From Nymphaea colorata (Eukaryota; Streptophyta; Magnoliopsida; Nymphaeales; Nymphaeaceae), in NCBI RefSeq assembly GCF_008831285.2, contig NC_045139.1, positions 23,972,412-24,036,411 of the forward strand: DNA of 64,000 nucleotides, written 5' to 3'. The notes beneath the pieces were generated by a model. That model saw only the letters and a program-made list of their open reading frames with translations, ran no database searches and was not told where the DNA came from. The position numbers were made by a program, and so were the translations under genes. This document shows positions 2,913 through 62,398 of this stretch, piece after piece. Every line of letters starts with the position of its first letter. Positions within the stretch are counted from its first letter, which is position 1.

Positions 2913-3104
2913 AAAGAAAAGAAGAGGCACCAGAAATAACGTGGTTCGGTCATCTTCATCACAGGCTTTACCGGCCCATTTCTCTGTCCAGCATTTGCTG
3001 GACAAACATCAAAATTAAAAACTTGAATGTCGATCCCTCTTTTATATCAGGATTCCGGTGGCTCAGACTTGCCTTTAGTGATTTCCGTAGCCAATAAAAG
3101 GTTT
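2472..3104. repeat. Segmental duplication copy A, left part
   Basis: From ACAGGCAACATCCCTTACAC onward this segment aligns by eye with 18482-19639. It continues, after removal of the inserted LARD element, at 12806-14991. The left breakpoint lies inside the DUF26 exon. Copy A carries the longer CRK and the complete UGT, so it is taken as the parent copy. Confidence 0.85.
3100..3104. repeat. Target-site duplication GGTTT, left
   Basis: The 5 bp directly before the TG of the left LTR are GGTTT. They are repeated directly after the CA of the right LTR (12806-12810). Confidence 0.95.
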
Positions 3105-5059
3105 TGATAGGACCTAAATCCCGAACCTCCGCCGGATGTCGATCCTCTCCCAAGATCTCTCGGAGGAGCCGTCGGACAACGCTAAAATCCAGTTATTTAC
3201 AATAAAGAAAACCCGGCCGGACAGGACCCCGGCTCAAAATACCCTAGGTAGCGGTACAAGTAGGGGAAACCCAAAACTAACTAAGATTGACCTACTACAA
3301 TTGACTACGAAGGTGGTGAAGCTTTACAATTTGCGAGCGATACAAATATTTAAACCTCTCACAGCTCACTCACAAACCATACAAACCACACTAGCGGCCA
3401 AACCACGCCCTTAATCCAAGTAGGTAGGTCGGCTCCTTGCGGTCGTGTCTCGGGCACAGTGCCCTCGAGGTACCACGGAAGGGAGCAAGGCTGAAGCCGG
3501 GCTAAATCAGGAAACAAAAGCAAACTAAGATGCTTCCTAGATGCAAAAGCAAAAACTACCACCCCGATAGCTACAAGGGGGAGAAGAACACGATACCAGC
3601 CAAGGGTATTCCTTGGCGCAGCCGGATTCGGACCACGGGGTGAGAACCAGTCCCCGGGTATTGCAGCTCACGGTTCACGGATGTCGGCTGAGAAGGGCCT
3701 CCTCGAAGCGCCTACACTGATGACGAGCGCCGATGAGGAAGGGCTTAGATTCGGCTTGTCGCCGATGCCGCTGGCTAGGACGCCGCCTAGAGTGTCGAGG
3801 GGGGCTGCTGCCGGGAAGCGACAGCGCCTACCTGCCTTCGTCAGAAGGTGGTTCGACCACACGCGCCGTGCGATGCCGACGGAGTGAAGGTGGCCGAGGA
3901 AGGGGGCCGGGTGTAACCGGCCAAGCCTAGACCTAACTAAGGCTGGGGTTGGTTTGGTTCGGCAGGGCTCTATAGGTAGGCTGGCTTAGTCAAGATAGGC
4001 TAGGGTTGGGGTAGGCTAGAGGGATCTTGTGGGTTTAGGAGGGAAAGTAGGTAGCCTAACTACGAGGTGAGTCTAGTCGGGCTGGTCTGGGTCGAGCCTA
4101 GGCTCAAGGTCAATGGTCACTGTTGACCAAATGTGGGTAGAGGTTGACTAAATAGGAGGTTGACTAATGGACCGAGCTTAGTAGGTCTGGGTCAAGTAGG
4201 TCAAGAGGAGTCACTCGAGGTAGGCTCGAGTCAACTAGGCTAGCTTAGAAAGGAGGTGAGCTAGGTGGGGTCAATGTTTCCTACTTTAGTCTAAGGCAAG
4301 TGGGGAGGTGGCGGCTTAGGACCAGTCCAGAAGGAGTGGGTTGCTTAGGGTAGGTGGCGGCACAAGAGGGAACCTAGCTAGGTGGGATGGGACTTGGCTG
4401 GTCGTGCCAAGTGGATGTGCCGGATCCTTGCCACGTGGCAAGATGAGGGGAGCAAGACAGAGAGAGCTAGAAAAGGGCTAGCTATTAGGGAAAGATTTGA
4501 ACTCTTTCCTAACTGATAGGGAGGAGCTCGACAAAGGAGGAGAGGGAGATTTACGGCTGAGAAGAATAAGGAAGATCGGCTAGGTGGCAATGATCTTTCC
4601 TAAACGATAGGAGATGGAATCGGGAAGGTAGGGAAGGAGATCTCACAAGGAGCCACCGGCTGGACACGTGGAAGAATGCGGGACCAAGATGGTGAGGTGG
4701 CTGATGGGCTGGCTGATGGGGTGGAAAAGGGCTAGGGAGATAGCGACACTTGGCGAGATGGAGGGCTGTGATGAAAAACGGATTAGGGTTGACGATTTCT
4801 AAAGAGACAAAATAGGGAAGGAGATTCGGCTGCTAGGGATCCTTCCTAATAGGTTGGGGCTCGAGATCCTAGACTGATCTCGAGTGGGACAGGTGTAGGC
4901 TGACTAGGACTTGACTTGGGGGAAAGTAGCTAGGATGCTGACACGTGGACAGATGGAGGGACGTAGGCCAAGGTGGGGAATTAGGGTTGAAGGGCGAAAA
5001 GTGTACCGAAAAGGAAACAAGGGGGACGCGGCCAGGGCTCTTCAGGCAGCCCTGTTTCC

Positions 5060-5590
5060 GGCGGACTTTTACCGGCCAAATGAAGTCCGATCACTGCGAT
5101 TTTTGGATATGTTGGAACTGGGATCGAGACGATTCCGACGGTATCAAGAACGCCTTCAAACTCCCGACAGATCGCCGGGAAATGGCCGTTGAACAGGCCG
5201 GTCTGCTGCTGTCCGCTGCAGAACGACGGCAGCGACACAGAACTGTTTCGCCACCGATTTCGATACCCAAATGATCTCGGATCTTAATGAAATTTTAACA
5301 GAAGATATCTGACCTTAAGACGATTCTAACGGCGTATTGTACGCATTGAAACTCCCAGGGAATCTACAGATCCAGATCAAAGAACAGCAACCTGTTTCTG
5401 GAAATGACAGAATCGCGGCCGCGGAAGGTGTTCTGTTCCTGCTCCGATTTGACCGACTAAACGATCTCCAATCACCACCAGATTTGGGTATGTTGTAGAG
5501 ACGTCAAGACGATTCCAACGGTATATAGATCGTCCTCTAACTCTCGGTAAATCTTCAGATATGGCTGTTTTAACAGGCGGCTGTTTCTGA
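5060..5590. repeat. Degenerate ~200-bp subrepeats inside the LTR
   Basis: Three blocks share the order TTTGG(G)TATGTTG, GACGATTC.AACGG, ACTC(C/T)C...AAATC, then a CTGTTTCTG phrase, at about 5100-5240, 5290-5400 and 5485-5590. The same array is in the other LTR at about 11230-11760. Similar phrases (ATTTTCAG..CGATTTGACC) occur in the interior near 8890-9110. Function unknown. Confidence 0.5.
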
Positions 5591-6092
5591 ACTTCCGCCT
5601 GCCGCGCGCGACCGAGAACGTGAGAGATCCGACGGCGGGAAACTTGCTTCGTTCTTCCTCTTCACCGTCCGAACTTCTTCAAGAGTGGCTTTGAAAGCCG
5701 TCGATATTGAAGACGTTGCCGTCTTCAATCTTCCCAGCATAAGATCGGCCTCTCAACTTCTGTGTGGGTGAGAAGAAGGCACCAGAACTTACTTGTATCT
5801 TTGCACGAAGGGGGAATAAACCGTGGACAAAGGAGGGACCGTCGCCGTTGGGGAAGATCCGCCTAAGCCGTGCACCTTATGCCTGTGTCTCCAAGGACTG
5901 CGGCTCTTCAAGGTGTGTTGTGGATGAGGAGGCGCCGTGGAGGTAGAGGACGCGAGGTGGGAGAAGACACCAACTCTCGGCTAGAGCATGGTGGGAGACG
6001 AGAAGGGAGATGCCTCGAGAGAGGAGAGAGATGAAAAACGCCCAAATGGCCACTTTACTCAAAATTTTCCCCTAATCTACAAGATCCAAAAA

Positions 6093-6100
6093 CTTATATA
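6093..6100 (-). promoter_or_regulatory. TATA box of the 3' LTR copy
   Basis: Minus strand TATATAAG at the position equivalent to 12264-12271 in the 5' LTR. In this LTR it could drive read-out transcription leftward into the CRK locus. Confidence 0.45.
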
Positions 6101-6501
6101 CATTCCTAGTGTGAGCCGGGTCTACAATCCAAATCCGGCTCTCTACCCAGACCCAAGTACTATTGGTGCAAGGCACAACCCGCCTTGCTAGGTCCCTACT
6201 TCGAAACTCAATGCTAACATGAATTTAAAGTGCATAAAGCTAAAACCGGGCCTAACACCCAATACGAAAAGCAAATGAAAAGTCCCTGAGCCTTGCGAGC
6301 CCAGGGCGGGGACCTCGTGCAGGTAACCGCCTGCACTTCGGGTTAGGGTCAAGGGCTTGGTCTCAACTCCGCCCAAGTCTTGTCTCCTCCTTTTGGACCG
6401 TAGCTGCTCCTCCCTCTCCGCCCACTGCAGCCGTAAACGAGTTGCTCATAAGGTCGACATAGGTTCAAACCCAAACCGTGCCACGGTTTAGCCTCACAAG
6501 T

Positions 6502-8478
6502 TCACAAGGGTGTAGGCTCGATAGGTGGTAATCGACAAGCCCAGCTACACCCTACGCCACTAGTTAGGCTTGCACAGGGTCCTTCGGCCATGCTGCCCGC
6601 TGGCCGCATACATGCCCAATTTTGGCATGTATCAGATCCACCCTCCTTACATCGAGCTTGACCCCAAGCTCGTCTCATGTTGTCATCATAGGTGATCTGC
6701 ACCACTCCCATCAACTTACCCACGTACTTAGTATGAGGTCCGTAATCTCTAGGTAAGTGCTCTAGGGAATTCTTCGGAAGAGAGAACCTTTGCCTCGGTT
6801 TTCTCATGTAAACCCATAAGAGGGTTCCCGCTTCCTTGCCCCTATCAGATGCTCGACCATCTGACTGTCGTCTTGGACCATAGTCCCGTGGTAAGAGGCC
6901 AAGTAGTGACCTTTGCTGCCCAAGAACATGCTCGGGCTCTTGCGGGTTCTCCAACACATCACGCGGTTTGCCTCTGTCATGGGCCTGCCATATACGACCT
7001 ATTCTTGGGATCCCATATTGTCCCACAAGGGATACTGGCTGGCCTATATTAGTTTCCACGTCCAGCCATGCTTCGGCTGCGCCACTAACTCTTGAATCAT
7101 GCGTAAGGGGGAAATGACTAGATCCGAGAGTTAAGGCCTCTAGTGGACTGGGTGATTCTCCCAACTTGGCCACACAATCCTCTAGATCTGAGCAAATGGA
7201 TCTCTTCCAAGGCGTGGGAAGGAGATCGACTTTTCCATTATGGCCTGGACCTTCTTTGGCAAGCTCTTCATGAGCATCGTATATTCTTCTTTCTTTTTGA
7301 CAAAGCTCATGGGTGGCTGTCCTCTGTAGGTTGCTCCTCACATCTTCCTTATCATTACCACCCTCCTTAGGCTTTGCCTTACCCTTAGGAGTGAGGGGCT
7401 GTGGTGGTAATGTAGCACTCGAAGCACATTCAACTTGTGTGGAAGGCACAAGTTGCTTGTCCTCTTCGTCGAGCAGTCCTATGACATGATTTTTAGGGAC
7501 TGCGCAAGAGGACTCGGGTATCCAATCTTCGCTGAGGACTGTAAGAGGCTCTTTAGCATAGCCATGGGTGGTGCCGAGCTTGAGCTCGTCTCGTAGCTGG
7601 CCTCGTATCGCTTCTATGTCATCGTCAGGCCTGATGCTCTCGAGAGATGTGGGCATGTTTTCAGCTAACTCCTGCCATTCAAGCCCCATGTAGACTCGGC
7701 TATTCCCTTTGGTGCTTTCCGACTCGCTAGGGGAGACCAAGATTCTCTTAGTTTTCGGTCTCTGGATTTTAATTCTAAGAATTCGGTACCCCTTCTTAGA
7801 TTTCTTGGCCGGCTGGACTGCGCTAATTTTCTGTGAAGCTCGTAGGTCCTCCTTGGACAGTAAGACCACTTGTTCGGAACCGCAAACCTTGTGAGTTTGC
7901 CCCATGGTTGGTTGTTGGTCTTGGCTCGTATCACTTGGCGCTGTCTCATTTTCGTTCGACTCTTCGCATTTTAACCTTTCTCTTATCAGGTCGATCTTTT
8001 CAAGCACCTTTTGCGCCATTTCATCCCATGTAGGAGGTCTTGGGCTTTGGGCATTCGGCCCATAATGCTCCTCATAGGATTCCGTTCGCTTCTTCGCATA
8101 AGGAGAGGGTCTTTCCTCCAGCACAAAGCAACGGTTCATGAGCCCAACTTGGATAGTTTCCCCAAGATAGATTCGCTCCCAAGTTCGAGGTCTCACCTTG
8201 TGTCCAGCCACAATCAATCTACCCGTGTAGGTGGTATTGGCTATCCATAGCGCCGGGGTGACTTTATCTATGGCCAACTCGAAATGGCGTCCTTGTACGC
8301 TAGGGTGTCGGAACCACAAATCACACTCGGGATTACTACCGGCCTTGATATACACCCATCTTGGACCTTGGTCCATCTCATCGCCTCTTAGCAATAGGGT
8401 GTCCTCCATGAATTCCCCGTTCAGGTAGGTGCTTAGAAGTATATCCATTTCGTCAAGACGGGCACCTATATCCGCCAT
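6502..8478 (-). CDS. LARD-encoded protein with N-terminal FHA-like domain
   Basis: A 658-codon uninterrupted ORF and the only long one in the element. It starts about 800 bp from the 5' LTR and ends inside the 3' LTR. Residues ~38-121 resemble a forkhead-associated domain, a beta-sandwich fold that binds phosphothreonine peptides. Matching parts are AGSNPECDLWF (G47, C52, D53; family pattern GR..xCDI), HPSVQGRHFELAI (family VSrxHaxi, H65), LWIANTTYTGRLIVAGHKV (family dl.StNGtfvNG..l) and LGETIQVG. The Arg and Ser that contact phosphate are replaced here (S48, Q62), so binding is uncertain. The remaining ~530 residues are charged and unrecognised, with a duplicated LPRDYGP phrase. There is no CCHC knuckle, protease DSG or RT motif. 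It could be a diverged gag, a captured host gene or a regulatory protein. Confidence 0.65.
   Translation of the reverse strand: MADIGARLDEMDILLSTYLNGEFMEDTLLLRGDEMDQGPRWVYIKAGSNPECDLWFRHPSVQGRHFELAIDKVTPALWIANTTYTGRLIVAGHKVRPRTWERIYLGETIQVGLMNRCFVLEERPSPYAKKRTESYEEHYGPNAQSPRPPTWDEMAQKVLEKIDLIRERLKCEESNENETAPSDTSQDQQPTMGQTHKVCGSEQVVLLSKEDLRASQKISAVQPAKKSKKGYRILRIKIQRPKTKRILVSPSESESTKGNSRVYMGLEWQELAENMPTSLESIRPDDDIEAIRGQLRDELKLGTTHGYAKEPLTVLSEDWIPESSCAVPKNHVIGLLDEEDKQLVPSTQVECASSATLPPQPLTPKGKAKPKEGGNDKEDVRSNLQRTATHELCQKERRIYDAHEELAKEGPGHNGKVDLLPTPWKRSICSDLEDCVAKLGESPSPLEALTLGSSHFPLTHDSRVSGAAEAWLDVETNIGQPVSLVGQYGIPRIGRIWQAHDRGKPRDVLENPQEPEHVLGQQRSLLGLLPRDYGPRRQSDGRASDRGKEAGTLLWVYMRKPRQRFSLPKNSLEHLPRDYGPHTKYVGKLMGVVQITYDDNMRRAWGQARCKEGGSDTCQNWACMRPAGSMAEGPCASLTSGVGCSWACRLPPIEPTPL
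6635..6655 (-). promoter_or_regulatory. Polypurine tract of the LARD element
   Basis: On the minus strand AAGGAGGGTGGATC lies directly before the 3' LTR TGATA. This is the expected position for plus-strand priming in LTR retrotransposons. Confidence 0.7.
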
Positions 8479-9261
8479 CTACTCTACTAAAGCAACTGCA
8501 AAAGCACACTGATGCTGAAATAAGAACTGACTAACTTCTTCTACGGAAATCACTGCTGCACTGTCTTGGCTGCCCCCGGTGCCTTGTTGAAATCTGCCCC
8601 GTGTGTGTCTAAGGAAGACGGAACCAGTCCGCCTGTCACCGCGCCCGCCTGGCGCCTCGGTGGCTAACTCTCGCTCTCAGCCGGGCCCAAGAGTGGGGCC
8701 TAAACTGTCGCGTCCGCCTGACGCCTCGACAGCGCACCTCGAGCTCAAGCACCTTAGTGTTGTGCGGTGTGCACAACCACAGTCTAGACCGTTTTTCAGG
8801 CAGTCAAAGACCGACACACAGAAACTCCAAATGGTGGAATTTTGCCTCCAAACTTGATCAGCACAAATTTGGGATAGTTATCTAACTACCCACCAATTTT
8901 CAGCTCGATTTGACCACAGGAAGCCTTCGAAACAACGTAATTTTCCTGGCAGACTGTCACCAGGACAGGTTCTGTCCGCCCAGGCCTTCAGTCCAGTTCA
9001 GGGCCACTCTCTCAAATATTTCGGAAGAATCTCGTCAAGTGCCCTAAATAACTTTTGTAGATTATGTAATTACGAAGTTCCACACCAAATTTCAGTCAAT
9101 TCCGAGGTCGTTTGCTATCCGAAACCGCCTGAAAACTCCTGCTGGCTGTGACAGTCCAGAAAACAGAAACTGCTACAAACTGAAATTCTGCTACTCCTAT
9201 TAACACCAGAAACACCGAAACCAGAAATCTGTCCCACACTTCACGACTGTACTCCAAGCTT
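8479..9261 (-). other. Untranslated leader of the LARD element
   Basis: About 780 bp between the primer-binding site and the ORF start. It contains two GC-rich related phrases, CCGCCTGGCGCCTCG and CCGCCTGACGCCTCG, about 65 bp apart near 8645-8730. The phrases may belong to a packaging or dimerisation signal, but that is inference. No ORF. Confidence 0.6.
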
Positions 9262-9273
9262 GCTCTGATACCA
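9262..9273 (-). promoter_or_regulatory. Primer-binding site, initiator-Met tRNA
   Basis: Minus strand TGGTATCAGAGC, complementary to the 3' end of plant tRNA-iMet including CCA. Two bases (AT) separate it from the end of the 5' LTR. It fixes the element's orientation. Confidence 0.95.
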
Positions 9274-9275
9274 AT

Positions 9276-12200
9276 TGATAGGACCTAAATCCCGAACCTC
9301 CGCCGGATGTCGATCCTCTCCCAAGATCTCTCGGAGGAGCCGTCGGACAACGCTAAAATCCAGTTATTTACAATAAAGAAAACCCGGCCGGACAGGACCC
9401 CGGCTCAAAATACCCTAGGTAGCGGTACAAGTAGGGGAAACCCAAAACTAACTAAGATTGACCTACTACAATTGACTACGAAGGTGGTGAAGCTTTACAA
9501 TTTGCGAGCGATACAAATATTTAAACCTCTCACAGCTCACTCACAAACCATACAAACCACACTAGCGGCCAAACCACGCCCTTAATCCAAGTAGGTAGGT
9601 CGGCTCCTTGCGGTCGTGTCTCGGGCACAGTGCCCTCGAGGTACCACGGAAGGGAGCAAGGCCGAAGCCGGGCTAAATCAGGAAACAAAAGCAAACTAAG
9701 ATGCTTCCTAGATGCAAAAGCAAAAACTACCACCCCGATAGCTACAAGGGGGAGAAGAACACGATACCAGCCAAGGGTATTCCTTGGCGCAGCCGGATTC
9801 GGACCACGGGGTGAGAACCAGTCCCCGGGTATTGCAGCTCACGGTTCACGGATGTCGGCTGAGAAGGGCCTCCTCGAAGCGCCTACACTGATGACGAGCG
9901 CCGATGAGGAAGGGCTTAGATTCGGCTTGTCGCCGATGCCGCTGGCTAGGACGCCGCCTAGAGTGTCGAGGGGGCTGCTGCCGGGAAGCGACAGCGCCTA
10001 CCTGCCTTCGACAGAAGGTGGTTCGACCACACGCGCCGTGCGATGCCGACGGAGTGAAGGTGGCCGAGGAAGGGGGCCGGGTGTAACCGGCCAAGCCTAG
10101 ACCTAACTAAGGCTGGGGTTGGTTTGGTTCGGCAGGGCTCTATAGGTAGGCTGGCTTAGTCAAGATAGGCTAGGGTTGGGGTAGGCTAGAGGGATCTTGT
10201 GGGTTTAGGAGGGAAAGTAGGTAGCCTAACTACGAGGTGAGTCTAGTCGGGCTGGTCTGGGTCGAGCCTAGGCTCAAGGTCAATGGTCACTGTTGACCAA
10301 ATGTGGGTAGAGGTTGACTAAATAGGAGGTTGACTAATGGACCGAGCTTAGTAGGTCCGGGTCAAGTAGGTCAAGAGGAGTCACTCGAGGTAGGCTCGAG
10401 TCAACTAGGCTAGCTTAGAAAGGAGGTGAGCTAGGTGGGGTCAATGTTTCCTACTTTAGTCTAAGGCAAGTGGGGAGGTGGCGGCTTAGGACCAGTCCAG
10501 AAGGAGTGGGTTGCTTAGGGTAGGTGGCGGCACAAGAGGGAACCTAGCTAGGTGGGATGGGACTTGGCTGGTCGTGCCAAGTGGATGTGCCGGATCCTTG
10601 CCACGTGGCAAGATGAGGGGAGCAAGACAGAGAGAGCTAGAAAAGGGCTAGCTATTAGGGAAAGATTTGAACTCTTTCCTAACTGATAGGGAGGAGCTCG
10701 ACAAAGGAGGAGAGGGAGATTTACGGCTGAGAAGAATAAGGAAGATCGGCTAGGTGGCAATGATCTTTCCTAAACGATAGGAGATGGAATCGGGAAGGTA
10801 GGGAAGGAGATCTCACAAGGAGCCACCGGCTGGACACGTGGAAGAATGCGGGACCAAGATGGTGAGGTGGCTGATGGGCTGGCTGATGGGGTGGAAAAGG
10901 GCTAGGGAGATAGCGACACTTGGCGAGATGGAGGGCTGTGATGAAAAACGGATTAGGGTTGACGATTTCTAAAGAGACAAAATAGGGAAGGAGATTCGGC
11001 TGCTAGGGATCCTTCCTAATAGGTTGGGGCTCGAGATCCTAGACTGATCTCGAGTGGGACAGGTGTAGGCTGACTAGGACTTGACTTGGGGGAAAGTAGC
11101 TAGGATGCTGACACGTGGACAGATGGAGGGACGTAGGCCAAGGTGGGGAATTAGGGTTGAAGGGCGAAAAGTGTACCGAAAAGGAAACAAGGGGGACGCG
11201 GCCAGGGCTCTTCAGGCAGCCCTGTTTCCGGCGGACTTTTACCGGCCAAATGAAGTCCGATCACTGCGATTTTTGGATATGTTGGAACTGGGATCGAGAC
11301 GATTCCGACGGTATCAAGAACGCCTTCAAACTCCCGACAGATCGCCGGGAAATGGCCGTTGAACAGGCCGGTCTGCTGCTGTCCGCTGCAGAACGACGGC
11401 AGCGACACAGAACTGTTTCGCCACCGATTTCGATACCCAAATGATCTCGGATCTTAATGAAATTTTAACAGAAGATATCTGACCTTAAGACGATTCTAAC
11501 GGCGTATTGTACGCATTGAAACTCCCAGGGAATCTACAGATCCAGATCAAAGAACAGCAACCTGTTTCTGGAAATGACAGAATCGCGGCCGCGGAAGGTG
11601 TTCTGTTCCTGCTCCGATTTGACCGACTAAACGATCTCCAATCACCACCAGATTTGGGTATGTTGTAGAGGACGTCAAGACGATTCCAACGGTATATAGA
11701 TCGTCCTCTAACTCTCGGTAAATCTTCAGATATGGCTGTTTTAACAGGCGGCTGTTTCTGAACTTCCGCCTGCCGCGCGCGACCGAGAACGTGAGAGATC
11801 CGACGGCGGGAAACTTGCTTCGTTCTTCCTCTTCACCGTCCGAACTTCTTCAAGAGTGGCTTTGAAAGCCGTCGATATTGAAGACGTTGCCGTCTTCAAT
11901 CTTCCCAGCGTAAGATCGGCCTCTCAACTTCTGTGTGGGTGAGAAGAAGGCACCAGAACTTACTTGTATCTTTGCACGAAGGGGGAATAAACCGTGGACA
12001 AAGGAGGGACCGTCGCCGTTGGGGAAGATCCGCCTAAGCCGTGCACCTTATGCCTGTGTCTCCAAGGACTGCGGCTCTTCAAGGTGTGTTGTGGATGAGG
12101 AGGCGCCGTGGAGGTAGAGGACGCGAGGTGGGAGAAGACACCAACTCTCGGCTAGAGCATGGTGGGAGACGAGAAGGGAGATGCCTCGAGAGAGGAGAGA

Positions 12201-12805
12201 GATGAAAAACGCCCAAATGGCCACTTTACTCAAAATTTTCCCCTAATCTACAAGATCCAAAAACTTATATACATTCCTAGTGTGAGCCGGGTCTACAATC
12301 CAAATCCGGCTCTCTACCCAGACCCAAGTACTATTGGTGCAAGGCACAACCCGCCTTGCTAGGTCCCTACTTCGAAACTCAATGCTAACATGAATTTAAA
12401 GTGCATAAAGCTAAAACCGGGCCTAACACCCAATACGAAAAGCAAATGAAAAGTCCCTGAGCCTTGCGAGCCCAGGGCGGGGACCTCGTGCAGGTAACCG
12501 CCTGCACTTCGGGTTAGGGTCAAGGGCTTGGTCTCAACTCCGCCCAAGTCTTGTCTCCTCCTTTTGGACCGTAGCTGCTCCTCCCTCTCCGCCCACTGCA
12601 GCCGTAAACGAGTTGCTCATAAGGTCGACATAGGTTCAAACCCAAACCGTGCCACGGTTTAGCCTCACAAGTTCACAAGGGTGTAGGCTCGATAGGTGGT
12701 AATCGACAAGCCCAGCTACACCCTACGCCACTAGTTAGGCTTGCACAGGGTCCTTCGGCCATGCTGCCCGCTGGCCGCATACATGCCCAATTTTGGCATG
12801 TATCA
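9276..12805 (-). repeat. 5' LTR of the LARD element
   Basis: 3530 bp, TGATA...TATCA, matching 3105-6634 almost base for base. Read on the minus strand, a TATATAAG box lies about 535 bp in. U3 would then be roughly 0.5 kb and R-U5 about 3 kb, an unusual proportion. Small ORFs in it are mirrored in the other LTR and resemble nothing known. Confidence 0.95.
12264..12271 (-). promoter_or_regulatory. TATA box of the LARD 5' LTR
   Basis: Minus strand TATATAAG, a canonical plant TATA box in a GC-balanced context. It predicts transcription starting near 12230-12240. Confidence 0.6.
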
Positions 12806-12810
12806 GGTTT
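12806..12810. repeat. Target-site duplication GGTTT, right
   Basis: GGTTT directly after the right LTR, identical to 3100-3104. The sequence beyond (GGTAGTATAGCAGCATTTT) continues the duplicated segment seen at 19640. Confidence 0.95.
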
Positions 12811-14638: not shown

Positions 14639-16084
14639 CTAGGCGCCCCCATTGTCTGTGGCTGCCCTTTTCTCCCACTCATCACCCAACCTCGCCAGGC
14701 TCGCCCACGAGGACCCACCTTCCTTGACTGCTGTGGCTGCGGCGTCCCTGGCCGCCTCTGCTCGCTCCCTCAGTCTAGCCCCTTCCTCCGATCCCATCAG
14801 CAGCCGGACACATCTCTCCACCTCGGCTGCGCTCACCATACCGTCTGGCCCTTCCTGAACGGCAACAGCCAGACCCATCTCGCTCACTAGCATCACCCGG
14901 TTCATGCGTTGTTCAGCGTACAGCGGCCACGCGACCATGGGCACGCCCGCACTCACGCTCTCCAGCACCGAGTTCCATCCGCAATGCGTCACGAACCCGC
15001 CAATCGCACCGTGGCTCAGCACCCTCGGCTGTGGCGCCCACGACTTGACCACCAGCCCTCTGTCACCAGTCCGCTCCAAAAACCCTTGCGGCAGCAGCGC
15101 TTGAGGGTCCGCATCCTCAGAAACGAGAGCTGATCCTGACCCACTGCCGGGGCTTCGAACCACCCAAATGAACCGCTGGCCGCTCCGCTCCAGCCCATCT
15201 GCGATCTCCCTGAGCTGCTCCATGGAAAACCGGCCGAGGCTCCCGAAACACAAGAACACGACGCTGTTGTCCGGCTGGGAGTCGAGCCAGTTGAGGCACT
15301 CCGCGTCGCCGTCCGCCTTCTTCCAGGACGCGATCACAGGCCCGATCGCATGAACGTGAGACGGGGGTCCGTTGGGCACGCAAAGGCCGTCTGAGATTGC
15401 TTGGAGCGCCCGTGGCTCTAGTGCATCAAAGGTGTTCACTATGAGCCCCTGGGCTCGGCTCAGCTGGGACGACGCCTCTAAAAGCAAAAAGTAAGTTTCT
15501 TCGCGATCCAGCGTCAGAGGAGGCATATCCAGGGAAGGCAATGGGGGGATGCCGGGGATGTGCAGATCTGCATTGAGACTACGGAAACTGAGGTCGGTCT
15601 GGTGATGTAGCTCGTTGAGGTACAAGAACGTCGCAAGTGCTCCAGCAGGGGAAGTAAAGTAAATATACACGGGTAAGCCCAGGCTGCCGGCGGCGACGCT
15701 CATGGAGGAGATGCAGAAGAAGTCTACGACAAATGCTAAGATGGTAGAAGACTGGGAGATGAGCTCCAACGCATCCTTGACGTGGGGGTTACAGGCGTTG
15801 AGGAATTCGCATATGAGAAGCTCGTGGTGCTGGGCATTGTGATGTTGGTTGGAGAAATCGAGCGGCTGGGGAAGATGGTGGAAGGAGACGCCGAGATTAG
15901 AGGACTCGACGGCCTTGATGTAAGGGGTGGAGTCGCCGAGGTTGAAGGGAGGGGAGGCGATGAGGACGGTGACGGGGAGGCGGAGGCGGAGGTGGATGAG
16001 CTTGCCGAGCTCCACCATGGTGATGAGGTGGCCCATGCCGGGAGAGGGATACAGGACCACCGTCCGCCGCTGCTGCTGCTTCAT
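14639..16084 (-). CDS. UDP-glycosyltransferase, UGT88-like, intact
   Basis: A single-exon, 481-residue family-1 glycosyltransferase, normal for the family (about 450-490). Such cytosolic enzymes move sugar from a UDP-sugar to hydroxyls of flavonoids and other small acceptors. The catalytic His is H19 (PSPGMGHL) and the partner Asp is D121 (VVDFFC). The 44-residue plant signature box runs W349-Q392 and contains HCGWNS (367-372) and the terminal Q392. W370 and Q392 fit UDP-glucose as donor. The N-terminal half (LPVYIYFTSPAGAL, HIPGIPPLPSLDMP) is typical of the UGT88 group. The acceptor cannot be read from sequence. The ATG at 16084 is the first in frame and gives the normal N-terminus. The gene is much more GC-rich than its surroundings. 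A truncated, stop-containing paralogue lies at 22312-22664. Confidence 0.93.
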   Translation of the reverse strand: MKQQQRRTVVLYPSPGMGHLITMVELGKLIHLRLRLPVTVLIASPPFNLGDSTPYIKAVESSNLGVSFHHLPQPLDFSNQHHNAQHHELLICEFLNACNPHVKDALELISQSSTILAFVVDFFCISSMSVAAGSLGLPVYIYFTSPAGALATFLYLNELHHQTDLSFRSLNADLHIPGIPPLPSLDMPPLTLDREETYFLLLEASSQLSRAQGLIVNTFDALEPRALQAISDGLCVPNGPPSHVHAIGPVIASWKKADGDAECLNWLDSQPDNSVVFLCFGSLGRFSMEQLREIADGLERSGQRFIWVVRSPGSGSGSALVSEDADPQALLPQGFLERTGDRGLVVKSWAPQPRVLSHGAIGGFVTHCGWNSVLESVSAGVPMVAWPLYAEQRMNRVMLVSEMGLAVAVQEGPDGMVSAAEVERCVRLLMGSEEGARLRERAEAARDAAATAVKEGGSSWASLARLGDEWEKRAATDNGGA

Positions 16085-51418: not shown

Positions 51419-54400
51419 TCAAATTGAGATGTACATAAGATGTTTGTTTTCAAATTGAGATGTACATAAAAATTGAGATGTACATAAGGCTTTAGTCAAA
51501 ACATCTGCAACTTGATCTTCAGACTTCATATAAGGCAGGATCAATTCCTTTGAATCTATGCGTTCCTGTATGAAATGACGATCTATCTCCACATGTTTGG
51601 TTCTGTCATGAAGGACCGGATTATTAGCTAGGTTAATCGCAGACTTGTTGTCACAATACATCTTCATCTTCTCTTCCATTTCAACGCCATCTCTTCCATT
51701 TCAACGCCAATATCTGCTAGAAGAATCTTTAGCCATAACATTTCTATAACCCCTATAGCAACTGCCCTGTATTCAGCCTCAGCACTGGATCTAGAACAGG
51801 ATCTAGAACAGACTTCCTGCTTTTTACTCCTCCATACCACTAGGTTACTCCCCAGAAAGATACAGTACCCTGTGGTAGACCTTTTAGTATCTGTGCACCC
51901 TGCTCAATCGGCATCAGAGTATCCTTCAATATTCAGTTGGTCCTGCTGAGTATACAGTAATCCTTTCCCTGGGTCATTCTTTAGGTACCCCAACACTCTT
52001 TCTGCACTCTTCCAGTGACTCAACACATTTACATCAGGGCGAGTAAGAGTAAGATAAATAAGCTTACCAACCAACCTCTGATATCGTCCTTTTCCTTCAT
52101 CATTCAGGATGTTACCAGTTTTGATACTTATCTTTGTACCAGACTCCATTGGAGTTAGAAAGGGCCTGCATTCCAGTTTACCTGTCTCTTTTATAAGATC
52201 CAGAGTGTACTTCCTTTGGCTCATAACAAGTCCTGTCTCTGATCGAGCAATCTCTATTCCCAGAAAGTACCTTAATTTTCCCAGATCTTTAAGATCAAAT
52301 TCAGCAGCTAATCTCTCCTTCATCTTCCTTTTCTCTTCTTCGTCGTCACCTGTGACAATCATATCATCAACATATACAAGAAGAAGGCTCACCAACATAT
52401 ACAAGAAGAAGGCTCACCAGACCATTTCTCTGCTTAATGAATAGGGTGTGATCACCGTTTCCCTGTTTGTATCCATTAGTCTTCATTACTACCCTCAGTC
52501 TTTCAAACCATGCTCTAAGAGATTGCTTCAGTCCATACAAGGCTTTCTTGAGATGACAACATTTTCCGCTTTGGGCATACCCAGGAGGCATGCTCATATA
52601 GACCTCTTCCTCTAGATGGCTGTTCAAGAATGCATTCTTGACATCAAGCTGGTCCATGCTCCACTTCTTTTGCACTGCTAGTGCTAAGATGACCCTCACT
52701 GTCTTCAGTTTAGCAACAGGAGCAAAGGTTTCATGATAATCAATTCCATATTTTTGGCTGAACCCATTTGCCACTAGGCAAGCCTTATACCGTTCCACAG
52801 TACCATCAAGTTTGTACTTCACATTAAACACCCACTTGGAACCAACTAAGTGAGTCCCCTTGGGAATATCAACCACTTCCCAAGTGTTGTTCTTTGCCAA
52901 GGCATCCATCTCATCTGTCATGGCCTGTAGCCATTTAGGATCCTCTTTAGTCATGGCCTGTAGCCATTTAGGATCCTTTTTAGCATCTTCCACACACCTG
53001 AGAATCACAGACATAGACAAGGAAGTAATAAAGCATTTGTAATCCTTGCTGAGTTTTGCATATAAAACAAATCTCTGAATGGGGTGAGAAGTACATGACC
53101 TGGTTCCCTTGCGCAAGGCTATGGGAAGATCTTCATTTAGTGGACTTGGTTCATTCGGGGAACTCATAGGATTGGGATTGGTTACATCAACATCTTCAAG
53201 CACATCTTTCTTCTTCCTGGTGTACACCTGGCCAAACAAAGGACCACGGGTAGTGGGCTGTTCATCCCCAGGGCCCCCTTCCACATGACTCTCTATCATG
53301 TCTGAGTGTGTCTGCCACACTGTGACTAACCTTGTAGTCCAAGAAATCCATAAACTGAATCAGCTGGTTTGAAGAATACTCTTCCACATTGTTTCCTATA
53401 CACTCCCCCTGAAGAGGATTCACAGGAAAGTACGCCTCATGTTCATAAAAGGTAACATTCCGGGAAACATAAATTTTGGAGGTGGTAGGATAATACATTT
53501 GTATCCCTTCTGAGTTGAGGAATACCCTACAAAGACAACTTTGATAGACCGAGGGTCAAACTTCTTGAGGGTTGGACTGTGGTCATGGACAAAACAAATA
53601 CACCCAAACACCCGAGGAGTAAGAGGCCAAGGGTTATGAGTGGGCATGAGGGGGAACGACCATTCAACACATGAGTAGGCATACGATTAATTAGGTGGGC
53701 ACTAGTGAGAAGAGCATCACCCCAGTAGCGCTTAGAGACGTGTCTATGAAACATAATAGCCCGGGTGACGTCTAATAAATGGCTATTTTTCCGTTCAGTC
53801 ACGCTGTTTTGGGGAGGTGTATAACTACAGGACGTCTCATGAACAATACCCTTGCTCCTCAAGAAGTCATCTAGGGATTGGGAGACATACTCTCGAGCAT
53901 TATTAGGAAAGCCTGAACAGATGTCTGAAATGGAGTCTCAACAAATGCAACAAAATTTTTGACAATGACGGGAACTTCACTACGTTCTTTCAACAGGTAC
54001 ACGAACGTACAACGGGAGTAGTCATCAATAAGAGTCATAAACTACGTTCTTTCAACAGGTACACGAACGTACAACGGGAGTAGTCATCAATAAGAGTCAT
54101 AAAGTAATAAAAACCAAAGTAATAAAAACCAAGGCAAGTGAGTACTCCCGAAGGACCCCAAACATCAGAGTGAACCAAAGCAAACGGACGGGTGGTTTTA
54201 TTGAAAGAAATAGGGTACGAAGCCCTAACATGTTTAGCCAACTGACACACTTCACAGGTGAAGGAGTCCATGGAAACAGAAGTAAAAAACCTAGGAAACA
54301 ACTTCTTAATCAACTGGAATGGGAGATGTCCAAGCCGCTTGTGCCATCACATGATAGTAGATCTGTCCTCCACGCCTGACAAATGTCCACTAGTGGCTGA

Positions 54401-55803
54401 AATGAGAGCAGAAGCAACCTGGACGGGCAGTCTGTAGAGTCCATCAATAACCGAACCAATCCCAATCTTCTTCCCCGTCACCAAGTCCTGCAGGAAACAA
54501 CGATCAGTAGAGAAGATTAGATTGCAATTGAGTTCTTTGGTAATACTGCTGACAGATAACAGATTCACAGGAATATTGGGAACATGAAGAGCATTATGAA
54601 GACGGTATTTATTCAACAAGGACAAACAGAAATAGAAGACTCATCAGTCATAGACACGCGTAGCTGCCCGAAGGACAATTTGTATTCTTGAAACATCTTA
54701 GGGTCCTCTGTCATATGATGCGTAGCTCCGCTGTCAATAATCCAATCACCAAGAGAGGAATTACCTTGATCGCTTGTGGCAACAAGAGCTTGGGCTAACT
54801 TAGCTCCCTCAGACGTGGATGCTTCCTCCGGAGTAGTAGAGGCCATAGATAGCCGACTGATGTAAGCTTGCAATTCCTTGATTTGATCAGAGGAGAGCTT
54901 TAATTTTTCAACACTCGAGGAGCTATCCTGACTAGAAGCAGGCACAGGAGGACCCCGCCGACCAGAAGGAGGACGACCATGGGTAAGCCGCTTTTTAGGG
55001 TGAATATCCCAACAGAAATCCACAAAATGCCCCAACTTGTTACAGTGACTACAACGTCGAACAGGACGCTGTCCAGTCCCTGAAGTACGGCTAACAAAGG
55101 CAGAGGGGGAACTCTCATGACTGGAGTGCATCACCTGACGTCGTTGTTCCTCAGATTCCACCCGAGCATACACTTCCTCAATCCCAGGGATCTCATCACA
55201 ATTGAGAATTTGACTCCTAATGGATTCAAATTCATCACGCAGACCCCCAAGAAAAATAAAGGTCTGGTTCATCCATTCTTTTTTCCAGTACAAGGCATGA
55301 TCAGAACCACAATTCCAGTCATCATTCACATGATAGTCCAGTTCCTCCCATTTAGTTTTCAGGGCTGCATAGAAGGATGCCACAAACAAGTCACCCTGTT
55401 TAAGGGAGTAGATGCTACGTTTAATCTGGTACGTACGCAGGACTCTTTTCTTACGGCCATACATCCTCGCAAGCACAGTCCACATATCATAGGCGGTCGA
55501 CTTTCGCAAAATAAGTGGCTGAATATCAGCAGAAACAGAGCTAATGATTCACACCTTAACTTGACTGTCTTCCAATGCCCAAGTCGCCCAATGAGGATCT
55601 GTTTTACTAGGCGCAGGTTTCTCTCCCGTGATATAAGAAAGACGACCGCGACTAGTTATCCCTATTTCGAGTGCAGCAGACCAAGAGAGATAGTTGTCTT
55701 TATTCAGCCGAATGGAGGTGACTTGAACCAGCAAGTGCTCGCTCTTGGTATTGTTGTTTGTGTCAAAGGCAACATCGATCTTGGGAGTCATTTCTTCTGT
55801 CAT
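51419..55803 (-). pseudogene. Copia 1 gag-pol polyprotein, broken
   Basis: Gag starts at ATG 55803 (MTEEMTPKIDVAF). An in-frame TGA near 55548 replaces a Trp codon, and gag resumes to the zinc knuckle CSHCNKLGHFVDFC (about 55012-55053). The protease motif DWIIDSGATHHM is near 54735. A frameshift follows near 54610. Integrase pieces lie at 54625-53527 (CEVCQLAKH, HSDVWGPSG, LIDDYSR). Reverse transcriptase is at 53320-51904 (QLDVKNAFLNSHLEEEVYM, YVDDMIVTGDD). RNase H is at 51679-51419 (MYCDNKSAINLANNPV, DRHFIQERI). The normal product is one polyprotein cut by its own protease; here at least five lesions prevent that. Confidence 0.9.
51420..54130. repeat. Seven perfect short tandem duplications inside copia 1
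   Basis: Units and places: AAATTGAGATGTACATAA three times at 51420-51487; a 20-bp unit at 51671-51708; 13 bp (GATCTAGAACAGG) at 51787-51812; 26 bp at 52368-52419; 33 bp at 52918-52983; 62 bp at 53979-54102; 15 bp (AAAGTAATAAAAACC) at 54101-54130. The 62-, 26- and 20-bp units shift the pol frame. Confidence 0.9.
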
Positions 55804-58717: not shown

Positions 58718-61132
58718 TCACCTTTCTTGAAGAAGAGGCCTCTCTGGGGATGATTCTAGGTATTTCAACACCATCAACGCCGCATCCCAGTGGACTTTTC
58801 TAGGCTTTTCCATAAACTGGCTTAATTTTCCAACAGCAAAGCTAATGTCTGGTCTTGTTACAGTAACATAAAGCAGTTTTCCAATGAGAGACTTGTAAGA
58901 TCGGGAATCTACTAGTTTTGATTGATCATCATGAAGATGAATACATGGATTCATAGAGAGATTAGCCGGCTTGGTCCCTAGCATCCTTGTGTCCTGCAGT
59001 AGATCAAGGACATACTCCCTTTGAGACAATACTACACCTTCTTTGTTCTCCACAACTTCAATCCCAAGAAAATATCTCAAGTGACCAAGATCCTTCGTGA
59101 CAAAATGCTTTTGAAGAAAAGCCTTTGTAGCATATATTTCTTGACCACAATCACATGTCAAGATAATGTCATCAACATATACTATCATGACAACTATACC
59201 TGTGGAGGTCTTCTTGATGAATAGAGAATGATCCAAAGGATATCGTTCAAATCCACATTGTGAAACCACCTCTGATAATTTGTGGAACCATGCTCTGGGA
59301 CTTTGTTTAAGTCCATAGATAGTCTTCTTCAACCGACACACTTTACTACACTCCCCCTGTTTCTCGAACCCTGGAGGTTGCTGCATATATACAGTCTCCT
59401 CAAGATCACCATACAGAAAGGCATTCTTCACATCAAGCTGATACATAGGCCAATCAGAGTGTACCACAACAGAAATAATAAGGCGAATAGTGCCCAATCT
59501 GGCCACTGGAGAGAACGTCTCAAAGAACTCAACCCCGTATGTCTGAGTGTAACCTTTAGCCACTAATCGAGCCTTGTATCGCTCTAATGACCCATCTGAA
59601 TGATATTTGCCTGTAAATACCCATTTGGAGCCAACAATGTCACAATCTTCAGGTGGATCGACCAACTCCCAGGTACCACGTTGTACGAGAGCATCCATCT
59701 CATCTTGCATAGTTGTTAGCCATTTACAATCTAGGAAGGCCTGTTGATGACAAGTTGGGATAGTATGAACTGCCATAGCTTTAAGAAACTGTTGTAAGTC
59801 ATCATCAAGATGGTTATCATCAAGATGGGCAGTGGAAACAAAGTGAGAGATAGGATGCATGGTACACTGTCTCTTGCCTTTGTGCAGGGCTATAGGCAAG
59901 TCGTCTGAAGGAACAACATCAGGTATACTTACTTCAGTGGAGCTCACATCTTGAGAAGAGTCTGATGGTCGACCATGAGAGGGGTCCTGTCGCTGAGTGT
60001 AGACCAATGGAAGATCTTGAAACCTATTCATAGTTAGAGTAGGAGATGGAAAATATTGCAACAGGACAGGAGAAATAGGTAAAGGGATAGGACAAGGCAT
60101 TTCAGATGATGCAGAAGTATGACTAAAGTAAGACCGAGACTCGAAAAAAGTGACATCCGCACTGATATACTCTTTGTGAGTTACCAGATCAAAGCACTTG
60201 TAGCCTTTTTGGTTTCGAGGATAGCCAATGAACACACACTTAATGGCTTGAGCAGCAAGTTTATCACGTTTAGGCCCAAGAATGTGAACAAAACAGGTAC
60301 AACAAAAAACTTTTGGTGCAATGGAAAATAAGCTTCGATTGGGATAAACAAGTTTAATAGGTACTTTGTTGTCAATGGAGGATGATGGCAAACTATTGGC
60401 AGGCCATAAGTATGGCATCACCCCAGGTACATGATTATGAAGCATTAGGGTACGAGCAACAGTTAGAAGTTGTCGATGTTTTCGTTCGGCAACTCCATTC
60501 TGTTGTGAGGTATGAGGACATGTAAATTGTGGAGAGATACCATTTTCAGCATAAAAGGTCATTAAGATAGATGATTTGAACTCAAGAGCATTATCAGTGC
60601 GAATACACTTAACCAGAGAACCAAATTGAGTCTTTATTTCAATAATCAAGTTTTTGAGAATACAAATTACTTCAGATCTTTCCTTCAAAAGGAATACCCA
60701 ACTGACTCGAGAATAATCATCAACAATGACAAGAAAGTACCTAAACTTATTTCGGCTAGCAACCCTGCTAGGTCCCCACACATCAACATGAAGAAGATCA
60801 AATAACCCTTGACTTGAAGGACTAAGACTCGAAGGAAAACTACTACGTCTGTGCTTGCCAAGTTGACAAGCCTCACACTGAAAAGACTCTGGAACTGAAA
60901 GATTAGGTAGGAGAGAACAGAGCTTGGGTGCTGAAGGGTGACCAAGCCGGAGATGCCACTGGAAGACTGTAGGCTCTGATGTAGAAGAGGTAGTAGCAAG
61001 ACCGATAGGAGCCGACAGGATGTAGACGCCCCCTTTCTCATAGCCGCCACCAATCGTCTTCCCAGTTTGCAAGTCCTGAAATGAGCATGAACCAGGGTAA
61101 AAAATAATACGACAGTGTAAATCAGTAGTCAA
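58718..61132 (-). CDS. Copia 2 integrase and reverse transcriptase ORF
   Basis: 804 codons without interruption. It begins in the GAG-pre-integrase region, then the HHCC zinc motif (WHLRLGHPS ... CEACQLGKH). The catalytic core has Asp in LLHVDVWGPS, Asp in IRTDNALEF, and Glu in SQQNGVAERKHR, the DDE triad. Reverse transcriptase follows with WELVDPPE, QLDVKNAFLYGDLEETVYMQ and the catalytic YVDDIIL, then LGHLRYFLGIEV. It ends at a frameshift before RNase H. Length and motifs are normal for this part of copia pol, but it lacks its own gag/protease frame, so it is not a complete gene product. Confidence 0.92.
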   Translation of the reverse strand: MTTDLHCRIIFYPGSCSFQDLQTGKTIGGGYEKGGVYILSAPIGLATTSSTSEPTVFQWHLRLGHPSAPKLCSLLPNLSVPESFQCEACQLGKHRRSSFPSSLSPSSQGLFDLLHVDVWGPSRVASRNKFRYFLVIVDDYSRVSWVFLLKERSEVICILKNLIIEIKTQFGSLVKCIRTDNALEFKSSILMTFYAENGISPQFTCPHTSQQNGVAERKHRQLLTVARTLMLHNHVPGVMPYLWPANSLPSSSIDNKVPIKLVYPNRSLFSIAPKVFCCTCFVHILGPKRDKLAAQAIKCVFIGYPRNQKGYKCFDLVTHKEYISADVTFFESRSYFSHTSASSEMPCPIPLPISPVLLQYFPSPTLTMNRFQDLPLVYTQRQDPSHGRPSDSSQDVSSTEVSIPDVVPSDDLPIALHKGKRQCTMHPISHFVSTAHLDDNHLDDDLQQFLKAMAVHTIPTCHQQAFLDCKWLTTMQDEMDALVQRGTWELVDPPEDCDIVGSKWVFTGKYHSDGSLERYKARLVAKGYTQTYGVEFFETFSPVARLGTIRLIISVVVHSDWPMYQLDVKNAFLYGDLEETVYMQQPPGFEKQGECSKVCRLKKTIYGLKQSPRAWFHKLSEVVSQCGFERYPLDHSLFIKKTSTGIVVMIVYVDDIILTCDCGQEIYATKAFLQKHFVTKDLGHLRYFLGIEVVENKEGVVLSQREYVLDLLQDTRMLGTKPANLSMNPCIHLHDDQSKLVDSRSYKSLIGKLLYVTVTRPDISFAVGKLSQFMEKPRKVHWDAALMVLKYLESSPERPLLQER

Positions 61133-61700
61133 CTTCTAACAGAGGGTAAATGAGATGGAAATTCAGGAGCATATAAAACATGTAGGATAGTCATAGATTG
61201 AGAAAGTTTCACATCTCCATAACCCAATATGGGTGACAGTCTACCATCTGCAATTTTTACATGACGTGGCTGGGAAAATTTATGCAGAGTAGTGAAAGAC
61301 CCAAGTCTACTGCAGAAATGTCTCGATGCTCCTGAATCAATAATCCACGAAGTACCTGAGTCAGACGTGGAAGGACCCACTAAGAAGACTCGATCAGTCA
61401 ATGTTGTGGAAGCCGAAGCCTGTGAGGCTTTGTGTGCTAAAAATTGCTCATACTCAACTCTGTCAATGCTAACTGTAACTGTCTCTGGTGATATACTAGA
61501 TGAAGAATCCTCCATAGTAGGAGTGGCAGTCTGTGCAGAGCCCATAGAAGAGTGAGTAGGGCTTTTGCCCTGTTTGGTGACCATATTTCTTCCCTGCAAC
61601 AAAGAGGATGGGTGACCATGTTTATCCCAACACCGATCCTCTAAGTGTCCAATCTTTCCACAATAGGTGCATTGGAACCTCCCACGGCCCCCAGTTTCAC
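61129..61700 (-). pseudogene. Copia 2 zinc knuckle and protease
   Basis: This frame begins with the nucleocapsid-type knuckle CTYCGKIGHLEDRC (about 61630-61671). It continues to the aspartic protease motif SWIIDSGASRHF. It runs out of frame at HVLYAPEFPSHLPSV, just where the integrase ORF opens in another frame. The gag ORF upstream is in yet another frame. Confidence 0.88.
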
Positions 61701-61777
61701 GACCTATACCTCTTCCTCTGGCACTATAGTGGAGCCATGACCACGACCACCCCCCACAGCAAGGGCAGAGGCAGGCG

Positions 61778-62398
61778 TCACACCAGCTGGTTGAGACAAG
61801 CTAATAGCAAGACGAAGAGATCAGGAATTTCACTTCCAGTGAGCATCTGATCCTTAGCAGCAACATACTCAGAGAGACCAGCAAGAAACTTTGCAACCAT
61901 AGTAGGTTCAAAGTGTGACTTACAACAAGATTTGCACGGAGGACGCAAGAATTTCAGACGTTCATAGGTAGCTTTAATTGTTGCAAAGTATTGTGATAAA
62001 TCCTGATTTCCCTGTCGGAGGTTGTGCAACTCTTCTTCAACTTGAAGGATTTTACTCACATTCTTATCTTCTGAATATGTCTGTCTAAGGAATTCCCACA
62101 TCTCCTTCGCAGTAGTATAGTAAGTAATAGAAGAAGCAATTTGTGGTTGGACGCTATTCATAATCCAAGACATAACCATGCTATCGTCCTCTTCCCAGGT
62201 TATGTACTTCCCTGACTTGTCAATAGGCTCATCCTCTTCAATTATGTGTCTCTTTCGATGTCCTTTGACTGACAACATAAAGGATCTGGAGCACAGTTCA
62301 TAGTTGTGTCCATCTAATTTAACCGTAGATCCATAGGAGAAGGGATTTCCAACTTCTTTATGATCGTTACCACCCTCTGATTTGTGGTTCTCAGCCAT
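61778..62398 (-). pseudogene. Copia 2 gag
   Basis: A 206-codon ORF with the UBN2/copia gag pattern: NPFSYGSTVKLDGHNYELCS, MVMSWIMNSVQPQIA, AKEMWEFLRQTYSEDKN and LRQGNQDLSQYFATIKATYE. The ATG at 62398 follows a ~730-bp leader. It ends prematurely before the zinc knuckle because of a frame change. Gag forms the virus-like particle in which reverse transcription happens. Confidence 0.88.

Follow-up and report, generated by a model that had tools for sequence, protein, structure and literature searches.

An FHA-type protein as the only long ORF of a young non-autonomous LTR retrotransposon in Nymphaea colorata

Why would an LTR retrotransposon that lacks pol keep a long reading frame free of stops, and what might its product do? 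This question is raised by a locus in a 64,000-nucleotide stretch of Nymphaea colorata DNA (hereafter the window, i.e., C2:23972412-24036411 of the genome that we searched, 407.8 Mb in 783 contigs). The original prediction, made from the sequence of the window, described the locus as a young, complete element of the LARD type without pol, whose 658-codon ORF begins with an FHA-like domain. LARDs, or large retrotransposon derivatives, have very long LTRs and no gag or pol, and are described as non-coding.

A complete young element with one long ORF

On the minus strand, positions 3105-12805 of the window hold a complete young LTR element with two LTRs of 3,530 bp each and an internal region of 2,641 bp. 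The element carries the marks of a non-autonomous LTR retrotransposon, namely TG..CA ends on two LTRs, a primer binding site (PBS), a polypurine tract (PPT) and a target-site duplication, and its features are as follows:

3100..3104, no strand: target-site duplication GGTTT, left copy
3105..6634, minus strand: 3' LTR, 3,530 bp, differing from the 5' LTR by 4 substitutions and 2 indel columns
6502..8478, minus strand: single long ORF, 658 codons, of which codons 616-658 lie within the 3' LTR
6635..6649, minus strand: 3' PPT TAAGGAGGGTGGATC, adjoining the 3' LTR, within the ORF and encoding KEGG
6736..6756, minus strand: LPRDYGP motif copy 2, residues 575-581, in other codons than copy 1
6874..6894, minus strand: LPRDYGP motif copy 1, residues 529-535
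7358..7369, minus strand: exact internal copy of the PPT core TAAGGAGGGTGG within the ORF, a candidate central PPT
7969..8043, minus strand: conserved TWDE stretch, residues 146-170, a probable amphipathic helix
8074..8454, minus strand: N-terminal part conserved across the protein family, residues 9-135
8143..8346, minus strand: FHA domain, residues 45-112, PF00498 above cut-off
9262..9273, minus strand: PBS TGGTATCAGAGC, 2 bases past the 5' LTR
9276..12805, minus strand: 5' LTR, 3,530 bp, with ends TGATA...TATCA
12806..12810, no strand: target-site duplication GGTTT, right copy

We take the PBS to be of the tRNA-iMet type. Assuming 1.3e-8 or 7e-9 substitutions per site per year, the divergence of the two LTRs places the insertion ~44,000 or ~81,000 years ago, respectively. 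Neither reverse transcriptase (RT) nor integrase was found in the ORF or in 10 other scanned frames of the element. The description of the locus as complete, young and without pol therefore stands, but the LARD label does not, as the internal region is not non-coding: it holds an ORF under purifying selection (see below).

This ORF sits at the gag position, crosses the PPT and enters the 3' LTR for 43 codons. Its 658 codons are free of stops, as predicted, and a chance origin can be ruled out: when the region was resampled 300 times under a Markov-1 model, the longest stop-to-stop frames averaged 139 codons, with 369 as the largest. No gag or pol family of Pfam was matched by the ORF protein, nor by the 10 other frames (4 of the 31 internal frames of at least 45 codons, and 6 from an LTR), which yielded one weak DUF202 match, under its cut-off. 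An ordinary gag was rejected, with no gag family matched by the ORF or by 23 family proteins at E<=1. Searches of NCBIfam with the ORF protein gave no match, and viral contigs held no relatives of the ORF or of the domain alignment, a result of little weight given that plant repeats are not expected there. The LPRDYGP motif is present in two copies with different codons in all 5 proteins checked; one relative, L020, has a single, altered copy.

Elsewhere in the window, minus-strand frames at 51904-55509 and 58718-62398 resemble, by eye, pieces of a copia gag-pol, and a 481-codon frame at 14639-16084 (minus strand) resembles, also by eye, a plant UDP-glycosyltransferase.

The FHA domain and its replaced pocket

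The motifs on which the FHA-like reading had been based (among them AGSNPECDL, HPSVQGRHFEL and LGETIQVG, in that order) are present in the protein, and the reading itself was upheld by profile searches. The Pfam FHA score was 22.1 bits for the whole protein and 24.8 for the domain alone (cut-off 20.7), sibling element copies reached 38.1 bits, and 20 of the 23 family proteins matched at E<=1 (best 1.3e-7). When the single sequence was searched against the PDB, the top two matches were to FHA domains, that of NIPP1 at E 0.015 and that of kanadaptin at E 0.033, followed by 4nk1, named hemoglobin-like (0.28), and 2n84 (0.96). A profile built from 17 family domains returned 22 distinct PDB sequences at E<=1 (E 6.9e-5 to 0.77, four of them <0.01), every one an FHA domain, including those of Ki-67, NIPP1, kanadaptin, Rad53, Mek1, CHFR, DDL, CEP170, Dun1, MDC1 and others. 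All but two of them carry the name of an FHA domain; these two, 2n84 (TbPar42) and 3gqs, are FHA domains as well. The whole-length family profile returned 2n84 only (E 0.06). A single-sequence AlphaFold model had seven strands at a pLDDT of 34, which is too low to be informative.

FHA domains bind phosphothreonine through a pocket with canonical Arg, Ser and Asn residues. These align with residues 48, 62 and 85 of the window protein and are replaced in all 23 proteins read: Ser stands at position 48 in 22 proteins and Gln in one, position 62 is Gln, Lys, Glu or Met, and position 85 is Thr, Pro or Phe. The alignment thus agrees with the earlier statement that the canonical Arg and Ser are not conserved, which lowers the claim of phosphothreonine binding and leaves that of FHA family membership as it was.

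Three loci in the genome keep part of the pocket. L048 retains the Arg (AGRHPDCDF, 49.9 bits), and L049 and L053 retain both Arg and Ser; the family profile scored them at 45, 32.5 and 37 bits, respectively, and did not report the host-like gene L047. Judged by its sequence, L048 is a relative of the window protein, because of this score, the likeness of VYLGLEWQALAE in its second frame to VYMGLEWQELAE of the window protein, and a reciprocal search, in which L048 matched at least 128 genome places (123 of 193 candidates scored) and recovered the window's copy at E 1.6e-5. The kinship of L049 and L053 is less sure. As copies of LTR elements the three loci are unsupported: within 3.2 kb each, none had a PBS (<=1 mismatch) or an exact PPT core, and none had DNA similarity to 13 element stretches. 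In tblastx against these same stretches, L048 had matches in the FHA region and in a further stretch of 14 residues, L053 had a weak one in the FHA region and L049 had none, and in a tree of 15 sequences the host-like L047 fell among the three (support 0.994 for the four). Several L048-like matches (on C14, C8, C12, C4, C10, C2 and C11) have a 71-91% match to the PPT and LTR start downstream.

Of note, L057 (C6:22610301-22613200), with 966 open codons belonging to a 1,465-codon frame, is related to L048 downstream of the FHA domain of the latter (34%, E 4e-26) and has YLGLKWQEMA and YLGPEWL. This frame was considered as a gag-pol partner, but the 966 codons read matched no Pfam family (E<=0.1) and the idea was set aside.

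Relatives, selection and candidate helpers

Homologous ORFs, whose presence in other copies had been proposed as a check, proved plentiful: with 67 of 491 candidates scored, the ORF protein had at least 78 genome matches, the most distant at 34% identity, and the best-preserved of them lie in open frames within LTR elements. Four full-length copies, including that of the window, are ~100% identical and one is at 98%, and many matches are at 34-60%, mostly over residues ~9-200, with open frames of up to 916 codons. Where the surrounding stretches were fetched, the better-preserved relatives were LTR elements whose internal DNA, ~4 kb in length, has a single long ORF, and the remainder were broken or tandem. 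Their LTR pairs are ~88% to 99.7% identical (pairs clipped by stretch ends), and several families have accordingly been active in recent times. Two very long frames were ruled out as gag-pol fusions, as they run through N stretches.

Among these relatives we also observed tandem LTR-internal arrays with a spacing of ~7.2-8.3 kb (L009-L011, C12:5.23-5.26 Mb; L012-L013, C3:30.76 Mb), and two PBS copies 156-157 bp apart, each after CTAACAAT, in L009, L010, L011, L018, L019 and L024 (some with one mismatch). In L027, a copia-type frame (RVT_2) separates two portions of an FHA element, in what looks like a nested arrangement. Pfam-FHA matches with internal stops occur on the small contigs C107, C494, C35 and C428.

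The 17-mer TAAGGAGGGTGGATCTG, which spans the junction of PPT and LTR, has 98 exact copies in the genome (reversed control, 0). A same-strand match to the family protein or to FHA lies between 3.5 kb upstream and 0.6 kb downstream of 59 of them (opposite-strand control, 0); the other 39 have no listed match. Junction and match are not independent in families such as the window's, whose ORF crosses the PPT. Viewed from the domain, 25 of the 69 listed Pfam-FHA places, a list that excludes the window's own copy, have the 17-mer 0-3.5 kb downstream. Gene annotation is affected accordingly, as by this junction criterion these 25 places lie in such elements.

The original prediction was to be given up if other copies proved randomly broken with dN/dS near 1. 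The copies did not bear this out: in 23 open frames we found a median dN/dS of 0.40 and a maximum of 0.69 in the FHA region, over the 167 of 253 pairs that were usable (dS between 0.1 and 1.2; the pairs are not independent). For chosen pairs the whole-ORF ratio was 0.27 to 0.60, apart from a value of 1.00 that rests on very few changes (L022 and L042) and a pair for which no ratio could be computed. Some other ratios near or above 1, also on few changes, speak against selection: 1.69 in residues 136-440 of the window and L005, 1.19 in the FHA region of L012 and L028, and 0.83 in residues 441-658 of L012 and L044. Between the farthest element ORFs, synonymous sites are near saturation. In two pairs, divergence is far lower in the FHA region than in the remainder of the frame (L012 and L028, dS 0.053 versus 1.75 in residues 136-440; the window and L020, 0.165 versus 0.82), and the FHA part seems to have been exchanged between element families. 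Given the diverged family, the dN/dS of 0.40, the association with the junction and the pocket replaced throughout, the FHA protein looks, from these comparisons, like an old, selected gene of the element rather than a recent capture.

Exact internal copies of the PPT core are found in 18 of the 23 ORFs; in L020 the core is terminal only. Out of 2000 synonymous shuffles per protein, the observed number of cores was reached 5 times for the window, never for L012, L019 and L022, 18-19 times for L011 and L028, 39 times for L015 and 153 times for L020. We regard the internal copies as candidate central polypurine tracts.

An element without pol would need enzymes from elsewhere. The genome contains 3,705 RT candidates (PF00078), and many of the 150 that were scored lie in open frames of ~1,700-1,780 codons. 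The 20-mer CTAACAATTGGTATCAGAGC, which joins LTR end and PBS and owes 12 of its 20 bases to the common PBS, has 295 exact copies (reversed control, 0), and the window's own junction is one base off (CTATCA). Among the first 100 copies, a listed RT lies downstream of 38 at a distance of 2,650-2,931 bp, and an FHA ORF lies downstream of 8 at 584-910 bp, with none having both (opposite-strand controls, 0 and 0), and on the listed part of C3 the 20-mer is present in 38 of 54 RTs. The RT elements that share it with the FHA elements are thus candidate helpers, probably Ty3/gypsy by their frame and position; in them the RT lies ~2.8 kb past the LTR end, which would leave room for a gag of their own. 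That the candidate helpers also share the PPT of the FHA elements is unsupported, as the PPT-LTR 17-mer was found within 8 kb downstream of 0 of 147 RTs (of the 150 listed). C3:28.3-30.9 Mb, which is 0.63% of the genome, holds 50 of the 150 RTs and 14 of 61 FHA loci, and contigs numbered above 16 hold 62 and 22, respectively; a listed RT lies within 50 kb of 24 of the 61 FHA loci (raw counts). The C3 cluster stands at the sequence end and may consist of centromeric or poorly placed repeats.

Possible roles and comparison with known systems

We favour, with a probability of roughly 0.7, the reading that the window holds a recent insertion of an old non-autonomous lineage whose sole gene encodes the FHA protein, putatively a scaffold, and which would depend on a helper. 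The helper, probably a Ty3/gypsy retrotransposon, would supply capsid, reverse transcriptase and integrase, and would copy and insert the FHA element. Having lost the pocket in the clade read, the protein probably binds another protein or self-associates through what is left of the sandwich, its polar middle and twin LPRDYGP motifs serving as docking sites. Its likeliest job would be to promote the packaging, nuclear entry or targeting of the element RNA or cDNA together with helper proteins. A protein-binding scaffold is favoured because the ORF is under selection and at the gag position, the domain was kept when the pocket was lost, a probable helix follows at residues 146-170, and LPRDYGP is kept twice. 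A more specific history, which we consider speculative and rather doubtful, is that of a lineage that does without gag or pol by means of a signalling-type FHA scaffold: an ancestral FHA domain would have read phosphothreonine marks of helper or host proteins and so brought the RNA into helper particles, its surface being rebuilt for a new ligand in later clades, and the internal PPT copies would provide additional sites for plus-strand initiation.

The main functional rival to a scaffold is that the FHA protein replaced gag and assembles particles itself, pol coming from a helper. The protein is the element's only gene, it occupies the gag position and a conserved probable helix follows its FHA domain, and Quinta, a non-autonomous element, supplies GAG (PMC11302176). 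On the other hand, no gag family was among the matches of the 23 proteins, and the candidate helpers appear to have space for a gag before their RT, and we consider this replacement fairly unlikely. Further still from our expectations, indeed hardly credible, is a real conserved domain with a fold other than FHA: the binding residues are absent and the window sequence barely exceeds the Pfam cut-off, but each of the 22 sequences that the profile retrieved from the PDB is an FHA domain and the sibling copies score well above that cut-off.

That the frame is a captured gene had been among the options of the original prediction, and capture of host genes by plant LTR elements is documented (PMC7264820); the domain, moreover, resembles cellular FHA domains such as those of NIPP1 and kanadaptin. 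As a recently captured passenger, a fragment of a host FHA gene, it is nevertheless very unlikely, since homologous ORFs stand in many element families, the farthest near synonymous saturation, with dN/dS of ~0.4, and no host paralogue was identified among those genome matches that were examined. Conservation of the stretch mainly as RNA or DNA strikes us as highly improbable too. It would fit the exact PPT-core copies, rarely matched by synonymous shuffles in most proteins tested, and the overlap of the ORF with PPT and LTR; against it stand the dN/dS below 1 over the ORF, the retention of LPRDYGP in different codons, and the finding that, of 71 invariant residues with degenerate codons, no more than 22 have the same codon in all six representatives.

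Non-autonomous LTR elements are usually viewed as empty cargo or gag donors. LARDs share with the window's element the very long LTRs and the absence of gag and pol, but their description is that of non-coding elements, whereas a gene under selection is present in the FHA lineage. The FHA domains of cellular proteins (NIPP1, kanadaptin, Ki-67 and TbPar42) match the family profile over the domain; unlike them, the element clade read is without the phosphothreonine-binding residues.

TR-type non-autonomous plant LTR retrotransposons (PMC9784723) have a single ORF that encodes GAG, RT, RH or INT-RT. Two LTRs and a single ORF are thus common to TR-GAG, the other TR types and the window's element, but the ORF of TR-GAG encodes a retroelement protein, GAG, whereas that of the window encodes a protein that has an FHA domain and matched neither gag nor pol families. 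The precedent for a helper partnership is the pair of Cereba (autonomous) and Quinta (non-autonomous) from einkorn centromeres (PMC11302176), in which Quinta encodes GAG and a domain of unknown function, and the two are paired by identical PBS and LTR termini and a conserved second half of the LTR. As here, the non-autonomous partner has its own protein, and the LTR-end and PBS 20-mer common to many FHA elements and the clustered candidate helpers may be the counterpart of the termini shared in that pair; in contrast to Quinta, the FHA elements have no gag, and their PPT is not shared with the candidate helpers.

Conserved, non-canonical element proteins of unknown function have been described (PMC11963269), yet these are additional to gag-pol, lie between pol and the 3' LTR and are in many cases antisense, whereas the FHA protein is the only gene, in sense, at the gag position. 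Similarly, LTR elements of bdelloid rotifers keep a domain of a cellular kind as an element gene, the DEDDy or GDSL of ORF3, which is extra to their other ORFs and is not FHA (0 occurrences in the available text of PMC5408684). Neither FHA nor forkhead appears in PMC7264820, and the titles and abstract starts of the open-licence PMC papers retrieved by our searches held no FHA-bearing LTR element. Non-autonomous LTR elements that encode a protein are known, and an FHA protein in that role is new within the literature searched. The lineage raises the questions of what a non-autonomous retroelement gains from such a protein and what the FHA domain does after the loss of its pocket. The set of elements is diverse, and its sole gene, of a cellular-signalling domain type, has been kept by selection, so non-autonomous elements of this kind can operate with proteins that they encode themselves.
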